Shown here in pieces: positions 407-26,119 of a DNA stretch of 64,000 bases (position 1 is the first letter of the stretch; every line of letters begins with the position of its first letter). Source of the stretch: Halonotius aquaticus (GTDB taxonomy: Archaea > Halobacteriota > Halobacteria > Halobacteriales > Haloferacaceae); the NCBI RefSeq assembly GCF_003605575.1, contig NZ_QKNY01000003.1, positions 1 to 64,000 of the forward strand, written 5' to 3'. Under the pieces are notes generated by a model. That model worked only from the letters and a program-made list of their open reading frames with translations, was not told the DNA's origin and did not search any database. Made by a program: the position numbers and the translations under genes.

Positions 407-1051
407 ATGTTTAATGCCTTCCTGACTACAGTTACAGATATCGCTGCCCTTGTTCCGGGTGAGCGACGTCACACTATGTCCGAGGCAGCTCGCGGTCAGG
501 TTGGGATCGGGACGCTCATCGTGTTCATAGCGATGGTGCTGGTCGCGGCGATCGCCGCCGGCGTCCTGATCAATACCGCGGGGTTGCTACAGGCTCAAGC
601 CCAAGCTACCGGCGAGGAGACGACCGCAGAGGTCAGCAACGTCATCCAGATCAAACACGCCATCGGCGAGGAGACCACGAACAACGGCGACATCGACGTG
701 CTGAATATTAGTATGCGCCTGACGCCGGGCTCAGACCCAATTAATCTCAGCGACGCCTCCTACACCGTGGAGGTCAACGGCAACGCGACCGTCGTCAACG
801 GCAACGAGGATGTGAGCGACGGTGTGTCGTACCACTCGATACAGGGATTGGCTGACAACGGCACCAGCACCTTGTCAGATCAATCTGATCTCATAACCGC
901 CCGGTTTAATCTAACCGCGATTCAGGGGGTAACCCAACTTGATGAGCGAACCAAGGTTCGTTTCATTGCGATCGCGCCTGATGGTGGAACGACATACAAG
1001 GAGTTCAGAGCCCCGAACATGATCGTCAATGGTGAATCGTACATCCTCTGA
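407..1051 (+). CDS. Archaellin (archaeal flagellin) precursor
   Basis: Structural subunit of the archaellum filament. Residues 29-60 carry the class III prepilin-type signal: [17 protein letters not shown] followed by the hydrophobic stretch and the near-invariant GVLINTAG segment of haloarchaeal archaellins. PibD-type peptidase should cut after Gly30. The rest is polar and Thr/Asn-rich, with several N-x-S/T sequons that could be N-glycosylated, as known for haloarchaeal archaellins. The 214-residue length is typical. The start at 407 begins MF as many archaellins do and fits the TATA spacing, but gives a 30-residue leader. The ATG at 476 would give a very short one. No other archaellum or chemotaxis gene is visible next to it. 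Confidence 0.9.
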
Positions 1052-1097
1052 ACTACTCAACAAACGCATTTGCCGAGGCAGCACGTAGCTTCGGCAG

Positions 1098-1430
1098 ATG
1101 AACCACGTTCCTGATTCAGTGGTGACAGCGATCGACACGTTCGGCGAACAGCTGTTACTCGGGGACGCCAGCGCCGTGAGCGGCACGCTCAGAAACGACC
1201 TGCAGATTGAGATCAGTCCGCCTGACGGATCGACTGCTGTCTGTCGATACAAGGCAGTCCATACGCAATCACCGCCAACGCTCAGGGATCGAGGGTCGTT
1301 TGTGACGACTATCGTCGATGGGGTCGATAGTCGACTCCAGCAGTGGGGTATCGACCCACCAGCGGCATACCGTTACGTCGATACCGTCAACGACACACAC
1401 CATTACGAGGGCACTCTACAACTGCCGTGA
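1098..1430 (+). CDS. Hypothetical protein
   Basis: A 110-residue open frame starting 46 bases after the archaellin stop, same strand. Composition is moderately acidic with one Cys, without a signal peptide, membrane segment or metal motif. I do not recognise the family. It could be transcribed with the archaellin gene, but nothing links it to motility. G+C content and codon use fit the host better than the next gene does. The overlapping minus-strand frame (911-1252) has a basic, Ser/Arg-rich translation and was rejected. Confidence 0.55.
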   Translation: MNHVPDSVVTAIDTFGEQLLLGDASAVSGTLRNDLQIEISPPDGSTAVCRYKAVHTQSPPTLRDRGSFVTTIVDGVDSRLQQWGIDPPAAYRYVDTVNDTHHYEGTLQLP

Positions 1431-1645
1431 GACAGCCATCTCCCAACTGAGTGGGTCACTATTGTCGACGGTAGAATCACGATAACCAGACAAATCAGAT
1501 CAACCAAGCATGGACAACGAGAATTCCTCGGAACGAATTGGCGTGTCTGTTGATGTACTATGGAAAAATGATGACGCTCGGATAAGAGAGAATTCTCATA
1601 AGAATCGGAAGAAAGACATCAATAAGATTGGATACAATTCCTATT

Positions 1646-2278
1646 CTACTGACTTCCATACCATTCTTTTCTAAGTTCCCTCTCAGGCCCACAGATCAAA
1701 ATATAATTTACGTCGTAACTGACCTGACTGCCTTCCTCATTTTTCTTTTTTATAGGCCACATTAAACCCTGATATGGATATGATTCATCCCGTTTTGCTG
1801 CACGTACAGATTGAATGATATGGCTTCTACGACCCCAATTGTCCACAGAAGTATCTCCTTCAAATTGTATCCCATTCACCATACCAGAGACTTTGATATA
1901 GCTTTCACCATCCAATTCGCTCTCAAATGGGATCGTCATCACCTCACAAGAAAATTTGTACAATTGATCTAAATTAAGCTCTTTTTTCGGTAAATTTGAT
2001 ATTTTTGGTATATCGTCAGCAGACATAAGACTGTTAGCTAATTTCTTTGCTTTCCGCATATCATCGTCAAAGTTGATTTTTTTAATTTCTGATTCTGTTA
2101 ATTCACCAGAGAACTCACCGGAAATTGTAGCCCACAGCTTTCCCAATTTGCCTGCCGCTGTCCCTGAAAAGCTGGAGCCGGATTCAATTCGCAACTCATC
2201 CACGTCTCCATACAATTCAGAGTAAACTTGTTCAACAGCTCCTTTTGACGCATACATAACGTGCTGATACTCAACCAT
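1646..2278 (-). CDS. AT-rich orphan protein
   Basis: A 210-residue protein of unknown function. It has a YQHVMYASKGAVEQVYSELYGD start, a Ser/Gly-rich segment (residues 33-43) and Lys-rich stretches such as IKKKNEEG. The Lys, Ile and Asn content and AT-rich codons contrast sharply with the acidic, GC-rich neighbours, which suggests recent acquisition. The N-terminal plan (short beta start, glycine/serine patch, long helical region) loosely recalls DUF6414-like proteins, but this is a weak resemblance. It sits 235 bases from tRNA-Trp, a common integration neighbourhood, though no integrase is visible. Confidence 0.7.
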   Translation of the reverse strand: MVEYQHVMYASKGAVEQVYSELYGDVDELRIESGSSFSGTAAGKLGKLWATISGEFSGELTESEIKKINFDDDMRKAKKLANSLMSADDIPKISNLPKKELNLDQLYKFSCEVMTIPFESELDGESYIKVSGMVNGIQFEGDTSVDNWGRRSHIIQSVRAAKRDESYPYQGLMWPIKKKNEEGSQVSYDVNYILICGPERELRKEWYGSQ

Positions 2279-2512
2279 CGATGTTCTGAGTAATATAACG
2301 TGTCAGAACGTAATATAATTTCCCAGAATCGGGTTTACGATTGAATCCACGCAAGTATTATTTGAATCGGCGATGGGATCTACATCACCGCACGACGGCT
2401 CGTTGGTGGAAACAATAGTATTCAAGTAGATCAGAAGTCCAATTTTGTGATTTAATGACTACTGTAGAGACTCACTGTTGGACGGTGAGTTCGATTCACG
2501 AAAGAGAGAAAG

Positions 2513-2691
2513 TGGGGACGGAGGGATTTGAACCCCCGATCGACTGATATCTCCGGTACGCGCCTCGGAACTCCAGAGGGTCGTCATTGCGAACCGATGA
2601 TCAGTCGGTCGCTCGGTATATCAGTCTGGAGTGTCGTCCCGGGCGCGTGGCCTCTGGAGTCAGTCGCCATGCCTGGCTTGGCCACGTCCCC
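2513..2691 (-). tRNA. tRNA-Trp (CCA) with an intron of about 105 nt
   Basis: Reading the minus strand, the acceptor strand GGGGACG (2691-2685) pairs with CGTCCCC (2520-2514), with discriminator A at 2513. The T-arm contains GGTTCAAAT. The anticodon CCA is at 2657-2655 and is followed directly by the intron. The 3' half of the anticodon stem resumes at about 2548. Removing roughly 2653-2549 leaves a normal 7-nt loop and a perfect GACTGA/TCAGTC stem. Haloarchaeal pre-tRNA-Trp is known to carry an intron of this size that acts as a box C/D guide RNA for 2'-O-methylation of its own tRNA. CCA is not encoded. Confidence 0.95.
2549..2653 (-). ncRNA. tRNA-Trp intron, probable box C/D methylation guide
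   Basis: The intron contains CTGA boxes (D-like), an ATGACGA box (C/C'-like) and the segment TCTGGAGT. That segment is the exact reverse complement of ACTCCAGA spanning the anticodon of the same tRNA, as expected for a guide. In Haloferax volcanii the equivalent intron guides methylation at positions 34 and 39. Exact splice sites depend on the bulge-helix-bulge fold and are uncertain by 1-2 bases. Confidence 0.8.
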
Positions 2692-2761
2692 TCGCCAGCA
2701 TCTTACCCGAACCACAGTAAAGGGGTTTCGGTCGCCACCGGCGACCCGCAGCCGGGACTAG

Positions 2762-2986
2762 CTACTCAGCCTCGCTGTCGTGCCAGTCGCAGTCCTGACA
2801 TTTGTAGCCGGTAACAAACGACGTGACGCTCGGCATATACCCGACGGTCAACACGTTGCCGCCGCAGTCCGGACACTCACGGTCGGCGTCCTCGATCTCG
2901 GTCGCTTCCATCGGCGACTCCCCTTCGATCAACTCGGCCAGCGATTCGGCGGTGACCATGCGGCCCTCAACGACGCGGTTGCTCAT
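2762..2986 (-). CDS. Small zinc-ribbon protein, DUF5795-like
   Basis: A 74-residue haloarchaeal protein with two CxxC knuckles, CPDCGG near residue 38 and CQDCDW near residue 63, that should bind one zinc. The N-terminal half begins VVEGRMVTAE and is rich in Glu. It matches my memory of the DUF5795 family, which occurs only in haloarchaea and has no known function. The ATG at 2984-2986 is the only sensible start. A role in nucleic-acid or protein binding is possible from the zinc ribbon but is inference. Confidence 0.85.
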   Translation of the reverse strand: MSNRVVEGRMVTAESLAELIEGESPMEATEIEDADRECPDCGGNVLTVGYMPSVTSFVTGYKCQDCDWHDSEAE

Positions 2987-3049
2987 ACCGACTCGCTAAC
3001 GGAGGCGACACCAAAGACCTGTCGTGCCGGGTGTGGCAAGCGAACCGGC

Positions 3050-20465: not shown

Positions 20466-21734
20466 ATGTCACGTGATCAACTCTCGGACGACGGAACGCC
20501 TGCGGTCGACACGGATGCACTCGGCGCGTGGGTCGCCGAAACCGCGGCGAAGAAAGGCGTCTCCGAGCGGGAGCTCCTCGATGAGATCCTCTCGTCGTAC
20601 TGGGTGCTCGAAGAGCTCTCAGATGTCGTCCTCAACGGCGATCCGACCGCCGAGGGCAGCGAACACACGTCGAGTCGCCAAGAGGCTCCACCGGAGCCCA
20701 CCCCTCGGACGGCATCGCCCGACCGACGGGAACAGCCCACCGACCGGCAGGAGCGATCTACCGACCGCCAAGAACGACCAACTAACGGCGGCGAGCAGCC
20801 GTCGACCAAGCGAAACTCGACGGCCGATCCGGAGCCGTCAGCCGAGTCGAATCGACCGACGGCGTCGACGGCAGACGAGGACTTAGAGCTCTCGGGGATC
20901 GAACAAGAGCTTGGCAAGCTTCGAACGGTCATCAATGAACTGGCGAGCGAACAGTCGCTGCCGACACCGGAGTCGGCGACCCCGAACGCTGAGCATGCTG
21001 ACCCGGACGCGTCGTCGTCAACCGACAGCGACGATGAAGCCGGCGAGTTTGAGGAATTTACGCCGGCAGACACGGAATCGTGGGCGGAGAGTCGCGGCGT
21101 TGTCGCCGAGTTAGACGATGAGCTCATCGAGATCAGAAGCCGGCTCTCCGAGCTCGAAGCCGAGCTCACCGACCGGCTCGCCGAGGAGGCCGACGAACGG
21201 GCGGAACTCGAAGCGTGGATCGAAACTGAGTTCGATAATATCGAGGACGTCCTCCAACACCTGCTGTCGACGACCGACAACCTCGAATATCGGCTTGGGT
21301 CGGCGATCGAATCACAACGCGAACAGCTTGAACCGCTGCAGGCCGCTCATGCCGAACAGGAGCAGTTGCAGACGCTGAAAAACGAGGCGATCGAAAAGGG
21401 CGTCGACGCCGCTGACTGCGACGATTGCGGCGAGACGGTTGATCTCGGTCTGCTGCCGGAGCCGTACTGTCCGAACTGCGATCAGCAGTTCACCGGTGTC
21501 ACCGCAAGCAGTTGGTGGCCCTTTGATACGGCGACGCTGCGAACCGCGACCGCACGACGATCACAGACAGAGAACGCATGGGGAAGCGCCCCAGCCGAGG
21601 AGTCACACGCGGCTGACCGACGATCGAACCAGAACGACCAACCACCAGCAGCCCCACGCAACGATCAACAGGAGCGGTCGGAACTCGACGGCCAACAGCG
21701 AACCGATGGTGGGTTCAATTGGGTTGATGACTGA
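20466..21734 (+). CDS. Coiled-coil protein with C-terminal zinc ribbon
   Basis: A 422-residue protein of unknown function in four parts. Residues 12-55 form an N-terminal helical unit (LGAWVAETAAKKGVSERELLDEIL). Residues 60-140 are a disordered Ser/Pro/Glu/Arg region with the repeated phrase TDRQER. Residues about 215-300 are a coiled coil (DELIEIRSRLSELEAELTDR). Residues about 318-345 are a zinc ribbon (CDDCGETVDL... YCPNCDQQFTG). The tail is disordered. No enzyme motif is seen. An AT-rich 20401-20450 region upstream could carry its promoter. The RecA-like gene follows about 60 bases later on the same strand, so the two may act together. Confidence 0.8.
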   Translation: MSRDQLSDDGTPAVDTDALGAWVAETAAKKGVSERELLDEILSSYWVLEELSDVVLNGDPTAEGSEHTSSRQEAPPEPTPRTASPDRREQPTDRQERSTDRQERPTNGGEQPSTKRNSTADPEPSAESNRPTASTADEDLELSGIEQELGKLRTVINELASEQSLPTPESATPNAEHADPDASSSTDSDDEAGEFEEFTPADTESWAESRGVVAELDDELIEIRSRLSELEAELTDRLAEEADERAELEAWIETEFDNIEDVLQHLLSTTDNLEYRLGSAIESQREQLEPLQAAHAEQEQLQTLKNEAIEKGVDAADCDDCGETVDLGLLPEPYCPNCDQQFTGVTASSWWPFDTATLRTATARRSQTENAWGSAPAEESHAADRRSNQNDQPPAAPRNDQQERSELDGQQRTDGGFNWVDD

Positions 21735-21794
21735 CGATACCCCGAAATCGTCGCCGACCAACTCACGACGGAAAGATGGACTTCGGTGTCATCG

Positions 21795-22658
21795 ATGAAT
21801 AACAACAGCCCACGCCAGGAACACGAGGTGGACGCCACCGCCGAACAGGTCGTCTCGGCGGCGACAATGGCCACCACCGGCGGAGCTACAGCGGCACCCG
21901 CGCAATCGGCTAATCGGCTGTGGGATGACTTCAGTGGTGACAACGACACCGACGCAGAGGCAGCGTCGACTGCTGACGAGGCCGTCGCCACGGAGTCGAC
22001 ATCGACACCCCAGCAGTCTCCAGAACCGGATCAAGCGTTCGACGGCGTGTTGGATACACTGTCCTCGTTTGGGCAATCAACCTCGCCGACACAGGTGCTC
22101 GTATTGAGCCCGACGAATCACGGCGTCACCAATGATATCTTCACGCAGATCTGTGCGACCGAGGGAACGGCCACCCAGAACGTCGTCTTCGTGACCGCGA
22201 CGCGGTCGACCAGCGACCGGCTCCCGATGACCCGAAAGTTCCAGGCGTGGGTTGAGGGACACACAACGCTGATCGAGGTTGGCCAGCCGCGTTCAGACCC
22301 GGAGTCGACCCGCGGCACCAATACGCTGGGACGAAAAGTTGACTCACATAAGGAAGTGCCGAATCCACAGAATCTGGCGAAACTCGGGGTCGTCATCAGC
22401 CACGAGTTCAGCCGGATCGACAATCAGTATCCGACCGTGCTGGGATTCCATACGCTGTCATCGATGGTGCAGCATCTCGGTACTGAAACGGTGGTGCCAT
22501 TCCTGTATACGCTCTGTTCGAAACTCGATGAGTCAGGCGTAATGGGCTACTGTCATCTCGATCCGGGCCGGCACAGCGACGATGATGTCGAGACGATCAA
22601 GTCGGTGTTTGATGTGTCAGTGCGGATTCAGCCGGATGGTAGCGTTGACATCGAATGA
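21795..22658 (+). CDS. DUF7504-like degenerate RecA/KaiC-type protein
   Basis: About 287 residues. A disordered acidic N-terminal 90 residues precede an alpha/beta domain starting VLVLSPTNHGVTNDIFTQIC, where RecA/RadA-family proteins have their P-loop. The consensus GxxxxGK(T/S) is absent, so ATP binding by the usual route is unlikely. Later strands and helices (LAKLGVVISHEFSRIDNQ, TVLGFHTLSSMVQHL, VMGYCHLDPGRHSDDD) follow the haloarchaeal DUF7504 pattern as I recall it. The ATG at 21795 is chosen over the GTG at 21786. It lies about 60 bases after the coiled-coil gene. Confidence 0.75.
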   Translation: MNNNSPRQEHEVDATAEQVVSAATMATTGGATAAPAQSANRLWDDFSGDNDTDAEAASTADEAVATESTSTPQQSPEPDQAFDGVLDTLSSFGQSTSPTQVLVLSPTNHGVTNDIFTQICATEGTATQNVVFVTATRSTSDRLPMTRKFQAWVEGHTTLIEVGQPRSDPESTRGTNTLGRKVDSHKEVPNPQNLAKLGVVISHEFSRIDNQYPTVLGFHTLSSMVQHLGTETVVPFLYTLCSKLDESGVMGYCHLDPGRHSDDDVETIKSVFDVSVRIQPDGSVDIE

Positions 22659-22802: not shown

Positions 22803-23621
22803 TTAGGCGTCTCGCCCGAATCGAACTTGGTCAAGCAGATCGACGGCTGTCTGTGTTGCCGAGCCGAAATCGAGAGCACCCGAAGTAGAGGCAAGATCGG
22901 CAAGATCGTTTGCGAGCTGGTCGTTGAAGTTCAGTCTAAAGTAGACTTCATTTGTCCCTCCACCCAGCGTCGCAGTGTTAGTCGTAGTGATCGGATCGCT
23001 GCCGTCGGCCTCACTGACATCCGGTGAAATTTTCGTCACGGTGTTGCCGTTATCGGCATCCTGAATGTGGAAAGAGAACACCCGGTTAAGAAGTTCCTGA
23101 TTTGAGGAATCGGTACCGACAGCACTGCCTGGGACATATTCAGCCGAGATTTCGACCTGACCACCAGGATTCACAATCTGCAGTGGGGCGATTCCTTCGC
23201 CGTCACTGGGATCGTACGGAGTTGAGGACGGATATGGTCCGCCGGCTGCCGAAGTGCCATTACGGTTGTAAGGCGCGTTTGTACCGTTTGTGGTATTGGT
23301 GGCAAGGGCCATCTCCAGATCTCCGTTCGTCCCGTTATTAATCGTCATGTTCGGGAACTTACCGTTGTCATCAGCTGCCGTAGGCGCAAAGTCAGATGCG
23401 CTATTAGTGTCATCATTTAAGAAAGTTGAGTAGTTCCCGTTGCTGCTCATCGTTGAGTCACTTAGTTCCCCGTTCTTTTCGATCTGAAGCCTATCTTCAG
23501 CGACGACTTGGAAGTTCGCCTGCGGAGTAACCTGGTTCTGAATTGATGCACCCGTTACTGAGGCAGCCCCACTGAGTGTGGCCGCCGTCCCCAGCCCGAT
23601 GATGAAGTTTCGTCGATTCAT
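22803..23621 (-). CDS. Secreted protein with SipW-type signal peptide (paralogue 1)
   Basis: A 272-residue exported protein. The start MNRRNFIIGLGTAATLSGAA is a positively charged leader plus hydrophobic stretch of the SipW-cognate kind. The mature part is Asn/Thr/Gly-rich with many N-x-S/T sequons and no cysteine. A segment TKISPDVSEADGSD followed by a beta strand region (NEVYFRLNFND) is shared with the protein at 25271-26119 (TKISPAYNDSDSDD... ETVQLDLKINLGN), which indicates a common ancestor. It may form extracellular fibres like TasA, but that is inference. It is transcribed toward the coiled-coil region and away from the peptidase. Confidence 0.85.
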   Translation of the reverse strand: MNRRNFIIGLGTAATLSGAASVTGASIQNQVTPQANFQVVAEDRLQIEKNGELSDSTMSSNGNYSTFLNDDTNSASDFAPTAADDNGKFPNMTINNGTNGDLEMALATNTTNGTNAPYNRNGTSAAGGPYPSSTPYDPSDGEGIAPLQIVNPGGQVEISAEYVPGSAVGTDSSNQELLNRVFSFHIQDADNGNTVTKISPDVSEADGSDPITTTNTATLGGGTNEVYFRLNFNDQLANDLADLASTSGALDFGSATQTAVDLLDQVRFGRDA

Positions 23622-24113
23622 TGTACCGAACGATAGTAATCTCTATATTACATCTATATAATCATTACGAAATAGAACATCTGTATCAATCACGCTGCCA
23701 GTGAGCAGTTGTGCAGAGGTCTTCACGGACTATTTACTGCTAGGACTCTATTTGTAGTCTTTCTCAAATTGGGTTCGGAATCAAGAAGGGAATTTGGCCA
23801 ACTGGCGATTCATTGATCAGACTGGGTCAAACTGAAATCGGTCGATATAGGCCTTGATACGTATCTATCACCACTACCTTCTCAAATAACAAAAATATTC
23901 AAATCCCAATATAGTAAACTATGTTTCTATTAGTGTCTATTTTTATTTTAAATCTGGTGTGATCTACCGCTCAACTAGTTTTCTCGACCAATAGCAAACT
24001 ACCGAAGCCGGTAGAACATAACAACAATCAATGGATCGGAAGGTACATTCACATCGGCCGAATACATACTGAATGATTGCTAATCCACATCTACGTAATC
24101 AATATACAGACCT
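23622..24113. other. AT-rich intergenic region between the surface-protein gene and the peptidase gene
   Basis: About 490 bases with no persuasive coding frame and many in-frame stops. It must hold the divergent promoters of the flanking genes. Several A/T-only tracts (for example around 23885-23905 and 23925-23950) could be TATA elements or a regulatory region, and none is placed at an obvious leaderless distance from the ATG at 24114. Confidence 0.6.
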
Positions 24114-25220
24114 ATGGATCTCAGATCAGCTGCAGGCACGAGTATAACCGTTCTGCTCGTTCTCATCGCGATTTTGATACTGGTAACGCAGGTATTCGGG
24201 TTTCCATCGCCGATTAGCTTCGTAGCCACCGATAGTATGGAACCACAGTTGGAACCGGGAGATGGATTTATTGGAATCCCAGAGCCACTGGCCGGTGAGA
24301 TAGCTCCGGGAGATGTGATCACGTTTGAGGCACAGCGCCTTGGTGGCGGTGGCCTGACAACACATCGGGTTGTCGAAAAGACCGAGCAGGGCTATCTTAC
24401 TAAAGGCGATGCGAACCCGTTCCGGGATCAGGCTGCTGGAGAACCACCGGTACAGCAAAGTCAAATCCGTCTCAAAGCTGTACAAATAAATGATAAAATA
24501 ATTGTCATTCCGAATGTGGGCGATGTTTCGAATGCAGCCGAGGGCGTGATTGGAAGTGTCATCACTGGAATCGGACTCGGTGACATTTCACCCGACAATC
24601 CTGGGATCACCGTTGCCATACTCGGGCTGGTGATGGTACTCGGAGCCGGTGGATATGATTTCATCTCGGATGATACGGCTCGTCTGTCGAGGCGATCGCC
24701 GTCGCGGAACGTAATTGACAGTCGACTCCTCCTTGTTGCAGTGTTACTCGTTTTATCACTGCCATTGCTGTCAATAACAGCTCTTCCAAGCGGTACCAGC
24801 GAACTGTCGATTGAGAGTAGTACCGCTTCGACTGACAATCCAGCAGTTATTGAACCCGGAAATTACACAGAAACCAATACCACCGTAGAGAACTCACAAA
24901 TTCTACCGATGGTGATTATCATTGAGCCAGCAAGCGAAGGGCTTGAAGTATCTAATTCCGTGCTGTCGGCCGGAAGCGACGAGACAGTAACAACAAAGAT
25001 CAAAATCTGGGCACCGGAAGAACCTGGGCGGTACGTGCGGAGCCGGGCGGTGCATTTCTACATTCACGTGCTGCCAGCGAATACCATCGGATTTCTCCAC
25101 AGAATTCATCCGTTCGTTGCGCTCACAGTGACAACCAGCGTCATGCTCCTACCAGTAGCGATTCTATTCCTCTTAATCGTCGGAAACCGAAAGATCCCAC
25201 TACGAGAAGTGAGCCGCTAA
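24114..25220 (+). CDS. SipW-type signal peptidase I with extracytoplasmic extension
   Basis: A 368-residue membrane peptidase of the ER/SipW (S26B) class. An N-terminal membrane segment (residues 11-28) is followed by the catalytic motif TDSMEPQLEPGD (nucleophile Ser41), then HRVVEK (His84) and GDAN (Asp99), which form the Ser-His-Asp arrangement of archaeal and endoplasmic-reticulum enzymes. A second part, residues about 190-368, adds membrane segments and an outer domain (IEPGNYTETNTTVENSQ, ILPMVIIIEP) of beta type. It lies between two genes for SipW-type substrates and should cleave their leaders. G+C is lower than in the housekeeping neighbours. Confidence 0.93.
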   Translation: MDLRSAAGTSITVLLVLIAILILVTQVFGFPSPISFVATDSMEPQLEPGDGFIGIPEPLAGEIAPGDVITFEAQRLGGGGLTTHRVVEKTEQGYLTKGDANPFRDQAAGEPPVQQSQIRLKAVQINDKIIVIPNVGDVSNAAEGVIGSVITGIGLGDISPDNPGITVAILGLVMVLGAGGYDFISDDTARLSRRSPSRNVIDSRLLLVAVLLVLSLPLLSITALPSGTSELSIESSTASTDNPAVIEPGNYTETNTTVENSQILPMVIIIEPASEGLEVSNSVLSAGSDETVTTKIKIWAPEEPGRYVRSRAVHFYIHVLPANTIGFLHRIHPFVALTVTTSVMLLPVAILFLLIVGNRKIPLREVSR

Positions 25221-25270
25221 CAGCACATCTAAAATAATTAGTATGTCAACATACATTTATATTATCCTGG

Positions 25271-26119
25271 TCAGTTCTCGGCCTCATCAGTTTGTATAGT
25301 AATCGCATCAAGCATCTCGACAAGGTCTGTGGTTCCTGCAAAAGACGGAGTTTTATCAATTTGCGATTCGATACCTTTCCGTGGATCTATAGGGTTAGAT
25401 AGAATTCGTAGATAGTTGCCAAGGTTGATTTTAAGATCCAACTGTACTGTTTCTCCCGGCCCTAAGGAAAAGTACCTGTTGGGATCGTCCATACCATCAT
25501 CACTGTCACTATCATTGTACGCTGGTGATATTTTTGTGGGGCCGGTATCAGTAAATCTATCGGGCACTATAAAGCTGTACACCCACCGTACGTCGTGACC
25601 GGTGAGGTCGGAATTATCCACGCTCCCACCGAGCGTCACCTGTTCACCGTACTGACCGTTCGGATCGTATGTCGTATCAGTCCTATCGTAGGCGATGCCG
25701 ATTTTTTGAGACTCACCGCCGTAGTTTTCGACCTCCAGTATGTTCTCAAACCTGAACGTGTCGGAGTCCCGTCTGAGGTCAAACGCGACTTGTAGTTTCA
25801 CATTCTCGTTGACGTATTGATCTCGGCGGTTGACTGTTGCGACTGGTAGCTCCGATTTGTCTATATTATCGAGCGTGTCGCTGGTATCGTCGAAGAAGCT
25901 TGAGTTAGAATCGTACGGTAGGTAATGACTCTGATATCTAGATTTGACGCTACCGTCGTCGTTAAACGCCTTACCAGCTCTGACTTCAACTCGTGGTCTG
26001 ACAACAATACCAAGTTCGGAAGTCGTTTCAATCGAATTGACAATAGATGCCGTCGTCGAAATTGCGCCGCTCCCGGTGGCAAGTGCGCCAAGCCCAAGTA
26101 ATGCATTGCGACGTTTCAT
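25271..26119 (-). CDS. Secreted protein with SipW-type signal peptide (paralogue 2)
   Basis: A 282-residue exported protein. The start MKRRNALLGLGALATGSGAIS is the same leader type as that of the protein at 22803-23621. The mature part has a beta-rich middle (ELPVATVNRRDQYVNENVKLQVAFDLRRD). It then shares with the other protein the TKISP motif followed by an acidic run and a LGPGETVQLDLKINLG strand pair. It ends with an acidic tail (TIQTDEAEN). The upstream ATG at 26191 would add 24 residues before the charged leader and was rejected. It is convergent with the peptidase gene, 50 bases apart. Confidence 0.85.
   Translation of the reverse strand: MKRRNALLGLGALATGSGAISTTASIVNSIETTSELGIVVRPRVEVRAGKAFNDDGSVKSRYQSHYLPYDSNSSFFDDTSDTLDNIDKSELPVATVNRRDQYVNENVKLQVAFDLRRDSDTFRFENILEVENYGGESQKIGIAYDRTDTTYDPNGQYGEQVTLGGSVDNSDLTGHDVRWVYSFIVPDRFTDTGPTKISPAYNDSDSDDGMDDPNRYFSLGPGETVQLDLKINLGNYLRILSNPIDPRKGIESQIDKTPSFAGTTDLVEMLDAITIQTDEAEN

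Follow-up and report, generated by a model that had tools for sequence, protein, structure and literature searches.

The window analysed here, a stretch of 64,000 nucleotides of Halonotius aquaticus DNA, contains three adjacent genes coding for a signal peptidase (S) and, on either side of it, two paralogous exported proteins (A and B). The peptidase-plus-subunit module to which these genes belong is real, conserved and wider than the original prediction had seen, and it most likely serves a surface fibre. That A, S and B form a surface-fibre cassette, in which a peptidase trims the leaders and mature A and B polymerise outside the cell, is considered probable. In Bacillus and in a few thermophilic archaea, donor-strand fibres are known that assemble independently of the type IV pilus machinery.

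The peptidase and the paralogous exported proteins

The three open reading frames lie exactly where they had been predicted. A (22803..23621, minus strand) is a beta-rich protein of 272 aa with a twin-arginine leader at about residues 1-25 and six N-x-S/T sequons; S (24114..25220, plus strand) comprises 368 aa; and B (25271..26119, minus strand), likewise with a twin-arginine leader, comprises 282 aa when read from its ATG, longer GTG or TTG starts being possible. The plus-strand S gene is flanked on both sides by minus-strand genes.

S had been described as a SipW-class peptidase with Ser41, His84 and Asp99, and these residues were found as described, invariant in 82 of 82 aligned relatives. 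The TIGR02228 model scored 55.1 bits against S, above its curated cut-off of 51.85, and a search of the PDB with the S profile matched SEC11 chains; armadillo matches in the same search covered a short segment and were dismissed as an artefact. The equivalog model of Bacillus SipW (NF046067) gave 30.4 bits, far under its cut-off of 190. On sequence grounds, S is assigned to the archaeal/eukaryal-type signal peptidases I (S26B, which include SipW), where Ser-His-Asp replaces Ser-Lys.

Hydropathy analysis of S predicted four membrane segments (residues 11-29, 165-183, 205-223 and 339-357). The resulting topology would place two domains outside, namely the catalytic ectodomain with Ser41, His84 and Asp99 (about residues 30-140; 24201..24533, plus strand) and a second ectodomain of no known family (about residues 226-336; 24789..25121, plus strand). 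The latter corresponds to the large extra outer domain that had been foreseen; it lies between two further membrane segments and is kept throughout the family. Homology of this domain to DUF5305 or to the subunits was considered and rejected, as the comparison gave no signal.

As the same genome encodes three other S26B peptidases, processing may not fall to S alone. A second S-type peptidase of 741 aa (L002:367-2592, minus strand; G000:C5:44554-45606) carries a long acidic tail and two C-terminal HTH_33 winged-helix matches, and its gene adjoins genes for DUF5305 and DUF7344 proteins; a similar gene of 765 aa occurs in H. terrestris (L105). Another S26B peptidase gene is preceded, at L033:1468-9041 (G000:C2), by genes for exported proteins whose leaders are of the camelysin/TasA type (LSRRK...GTSAFFSDEE); this is a separate, more classical SipW/TasA-like set. 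In a third set (L032:7427-11708, G000:C17), consecutive genes encode an exported protein of 210 aa, an S26B peptidase, a protein of 263 aa and a DUF5305-like protein of 506 aa. At L149:5621-6807, the S gene is broken into two frames, and the same genome has another, intact S-family match.

The SipW-type leaders attributed to A and B read MNRRNFIIGLG and MKRRNALLGLG, respectively. The TKISP motif and the acidic run following it were seen in both proteins, and in the family alignment I-S-P is a near-invariant signature, as are an asparagine in mid-protein and a late phenylalanine. The N-x-N/strand pair that had been proposed as a shared C-terminal feature was not conserved in this alignment; what is conserved towards the C terminus is F...DLLD.I..G. 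BLASTP aligned A with B at 25% identity (E 3e-6), with the leader contributing part of the match. With the leaders removed, profile-profile comparison of five A-type proteins with two B-type and four Halorubrum proteins gave a probability of 99.6% and an E value of 9e-24 over 223 columns; the paralogy of A and B is beyond chance, in line with the original prediction. In a single-sequence search of their own genome at E <= 0.1, A and B found only each other. Neither protein contains cysteine, and they are therefore not lipoproteins.

Fold, relatives and export of the subunits

A scan of A and B against Pfam and NCBIfam assigned them to no family and yielded weak leader matches only. The match of B to the fimbrial adapter TafE (NF052522) and that of A to a formate-TAT model were confined to the leader, far below cut-off, and were discarded. 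Kinship with TasA and camelysin, which the original prediction had suggested, was not borne out, since neither A nor B matched PF12389, TIGR04088 or NF046066, and membership was ruled out on these comparisons; TasA structures were also absent among the 50 matches listed for each of the A and B models. The cassette resembles Bacillus tapA-sipW-tasA in that a Ser-His-Asp peptidase is encoded with two exported (here putative) fibre proteins, but it differs in that A and B match no TasA, camelysin or TIGR04088 model and in that S is opposite in strand to A and B.

Structure prediction had been proposed as a check for a fibre-type fold, and its outcome was divided between the two proteins. The AlphaFold model of B, built from 11 sequences, reached a pLDDT of 68 and a pTM of 0.72. 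In a Foldseek search of 350,542 PDB chains it matched first the AbpA bundling pili of Pyrobaculum calidifontis (7UEG; E 1.1e-3, probability 1.00, TM 0.31/0.45, rmsd 16 Å), second the Sulfolobus thread (Saci_0406, 7PNB; E 2.9e-3, probability 0.97, TM 0.28/0.40) and third 9IKJ 'TLP-1a' (E 0.033, probability 0.38), which we take to be a filament subunit. Judged from the predicted model, it is unlikely that two named filament subunits, with 9IKJ as a presumed third, would top the search by chance. The global TM-scores of the three matches are low (0.27-0.45) and the rmsd values large, so that the resemblance of the modelled B fold to filament subunits is loose and amounts to a good lead rather than to proof. 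For A, the model was poor (pLDDT 56), and Foldseek returned no significant fold match in the PDB; its weak matches include carbohydrate-binding beta-sandwiches.

AbpA shares with the haloarchaeal proteins the exported, archaeal beta-sandwich subunit, but the PDB sequence search returned no match to the 7UEG chain, and the haloarchaeal side has twin-arginine leaders, the S ectodomain, DUF5305 and coiled-coil partners. For the Sulfolobus thread, the fold match likewise stands against a loose superposition and the lack of a match in the PDB sequence search.

An independent relation was found to the DUF1102-like proteins (PF06510) encoded at S loci. The A/B profile matched these proteins in hhalign at 97.6% (E 3e-12, 155 columns, leader included), and they in turn match a solved structure named 'Pilin' (PDB 9P0A) at E 1e-6. 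In Natronorubrum bangense, the protein encoded two genes before S matches 9P0A at E 1.6e-21; compared directly, the A/B profile reached only E 0.054 with 9P0A. What A and B share with these proteins is the leader type, the profile relation and, in other haloarchaea, S-family peptidase neighbours; what sets them apart is the ISP motif, an additional length of about 50-80 aa and the Pfam DUF1102 model (PF06510), which gave no match above cut-off with A or B. The surface-fibre reading of the original prediction is supported in part, by the loose fold match of B and by the DUF1102-like/pilin relation, and finds no backing in the A fold or in TasA/camelysin membership.

Donor-strand complementation has been described for TasA, bundling pili and threads (PMC9674648; PMC9715654). 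By analogy, it may operate in the A/B system.

For the export route, the leaders of 129 DUF1102-like or A-like proteins were surveyed, of which 115 fitted the search pattern. All 115 contained RR, and 112 had a hydrophobic residue at position +4, a criterion based on the TatFind rule; A (RRNFI) and B (RRNAL) have both features. Among the 14 leaders off the pattern, 12 were inspected: several have RR, two have RK, two lack both, and a further two seem to be truncated or wrongly assigned. The near-invariance of RR, although lysine would do equally well for Sec, suggests that A, B and their relatives are exported via Tat.

Recurrence of the module in haloarchaea

A search of other haloarchaea for neighbourhoods of a peptidase and exported proteins had been proposed as a check, and such neighbourhoods do recur. 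Of 80 named haloarchaeal loci with S, 64 encode an exported protein of the DUF1102-like or A-like kind within 5 kb, and 67 encode DUF5305. Both subunit and DUF5305 frequencies drop with distance from S, the subunit matches per 2-kb bin outward being 50, 61, 29 and 4. Of the 392 genomes of the order, 290 have S (81 of 95 genera) and 300 have DUF5305 (83 genera); when the lists were compared by eye, 289 genomes had both, 11 had DUF5305 alone and one, which is 78% complete, had S alone. DUF5305 is the usual partner of S. In H. aquaticus it is encoded away from the cassette, beside the second S-type peptidase. A-type subunits are rarer, occurring in 23 of the 392 genomes with a first profile (E <= 1e-6) and in 31 of 167 genomes in the family with a second profile (E < 1e-25).

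Fuller loci comprise three exported subunits, S, DUF5305, a coiled-coil gene, DUF7504, a CheY-type/HalX-type regulator and a DUF7344 winged-helix protein. Two of these components lie next to the cassette. The first (20466..21734, plus strand) encodes a coiled-coil/zinc-ribbon cytoplasmic protein, recognised by its co-location with A-type genes and by an alignment with C-x2-C...C-x2-C. In 28 of 31 genomes, no more than 11 kb separates the best match to this gene from an A-type gene, and we conclude that the coiled-coil gene belongs to the module; in two of the three exceptions, the two genes are on different contigs. The second (21786..22658, plus strand) encodes a DUF7504 protein (PF24336, 87.9 bits), probably regulatory; in Halohasta, Halobellus and Halorubrum, DUF7504 genes adjoin those for the coiled-coil protein, S, A or DUF5305. 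Both neighbours are members of the module that were absent from the earlier reading, as were the partner DUF5305 and the twin-arginine character of the leaders.

A haloarchaeal S/DUF5305/DUF1102-like module also occurs on PULR01000059.1, a contig that bears the title of a Mollicutes MAG and is probably misbinned. The literature searched contained no paper mentioning DUF1102 or DUF5305.

Probable exchange at a fixed site and the proposed mechanism

Among the named relatives of H. aquaticus, Halonotius terrestris, H. pteroides and H. roseus came out as the closest. The order DUF7114, coiled-coil gene, DUF7504, cassette and serS is the same in five Halonotius species, and with site and both flanks conserved throughout, the cassette site is fixed. 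A and S were found in four of the five; in the fifth, incomplete genome, the place of A and the beginning of S fall into an assembly gap. Only three of the five (the window, the fifth genome and H. roseus) carry a B-type gene, so the A/B pair is not obligatory. The cluster is AT-richer than its surroundings, as had been stated, with GC contents of 0.53 (A), 0.51 (S), 0.48 (B) and 0.38 (the gap between A and S) against 0.613 for the window. Its interpretation as an island did not hold: a recent island is ruled out by the conserved site and flanks, only the content of the cassette apparently being exchanged, and low GC is common to most A-type genes of other genera. A further AT-rich stretch (GC 0.47-0.52) lies near the start of the window, at 1001-3000. 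Exported proteins of 416-554 aa with an A-type leader are encoded repeatedly in Halonotius genomes (L026:5962-7212, L027:6736-8400 and L162:7853-9130), adjoining genes that resemble RNA polymerase subunits.

Between the window and H. pteroides, identity is 93% for DUF7114, 79% for the coiled-coil protein, 81% for DUF7504 and 94% for serS, and drops to 33% for A and 47% for S. The trees of S, A and the flanks rest on few Halonotius, with five species only. The S tree groups the window with H. terrestris (support 99/97) and rejects its grouping with H. pteroides (AU p 1.6e-5), and the A tree, with a very long branch, agrees (support 90/94, AU p 9e-4). The coiled-coil and DUF7504 data reject the grouping with H. 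terrestris (p 0.018 and 0.002, respectively). Fast evolution of A and S in place, with no exchange, would fit the long A branch, the small number of species and the pace at which surface proteins evolve; it appears unlikely, given that S, a catalytically constrained membrane enzyme, shows the same conflict, that the flanks reject its topology, and that the fifth genome is closer to the window in the surviving parts of S (78%) and of B (69%) than in DUF7504 (59%) and the coiled-coil protein (46-56%). A and S share a history that conflicts with that of the flanks; joint replacement by recombination is the simplest reading, and their inheritance together supports S as the peptidase of A itself.

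Two other readings of function were weighed against the surface fibre. A and B can also be read as secreted, non-polymerising beta-sandwich proteins, that is, as monomeric or S-layer-associated proteins with a glycan-binding or structural role, adjoined by chance by S as a second general signal peptidase. The carbohydrate-binding folds among the weak matches of A, its six N-glycosylation sequons and the occurrence of S in most genomes of the order are in keeping with this, but filament subunits are the top fold matches of B, S and A share a history at odds with the flanking genes, and DUF1102-like exported proteins are usually found beside S genes; we regard the explanation as rather improbable. 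Far less plausible still is a locus for defence or contact-dependent surface variation, where hypervariable exported proteins and their processing enzyme are swapped under phage or grazing pressure. The low identity of A and S between species relative to serS and the conflicting trees agree with such a locus; a surface fibre would be equally hypervariable, however, and a pilin among the relatives and the fibre-like model of B point away from it.

For the preferred surface-fibre cassette the following mechanism is proposed, in which cleavage of A and B by S, export through Tat, polymerisation and any contribution to adhesion or biofilms are putative. A and B would be exported, probably via Tat by virtue of their twin-arginine leaders, and membrane-held S, with its catalytic domain outside, would cut the leaders behind a junction of a small and an aromatic or aliphatic residue. 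The mature beta-sandwich proteins would then polymerise extracellularly, most likely through donor-strand complementation by the freed N terminus. The second ectodomain of S may hold the fibre or seed its growth, as may the DUF5305 protein, whose gene lies elsewhere in the genome, and the coiled-coil and DUF7504 partners would probably act in regulation or cytoplasmic assembly. The full combination of Tat-exported subunits, a dedicated S26B peptidase with an assembly-type ectodomain, polymerisation outside and an allelic cassette, fixed in position, through which subunit and peptidase are swapped together between species is put forward tentatively, as a possibility short of even odds.

These findings suggest that about three quarters of the genomes sampled from a haloarchaeal order carry a module of this general kind, made up of a processing peptidase and subunits and filed under family names that carry no function. 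The system bears on whether fibre subunits can exit via Tat and on how specific a peptidase is for the subunit inherited with it. If the proposal is true, a fibre type would be swapped between species along with its own processing enzyme.
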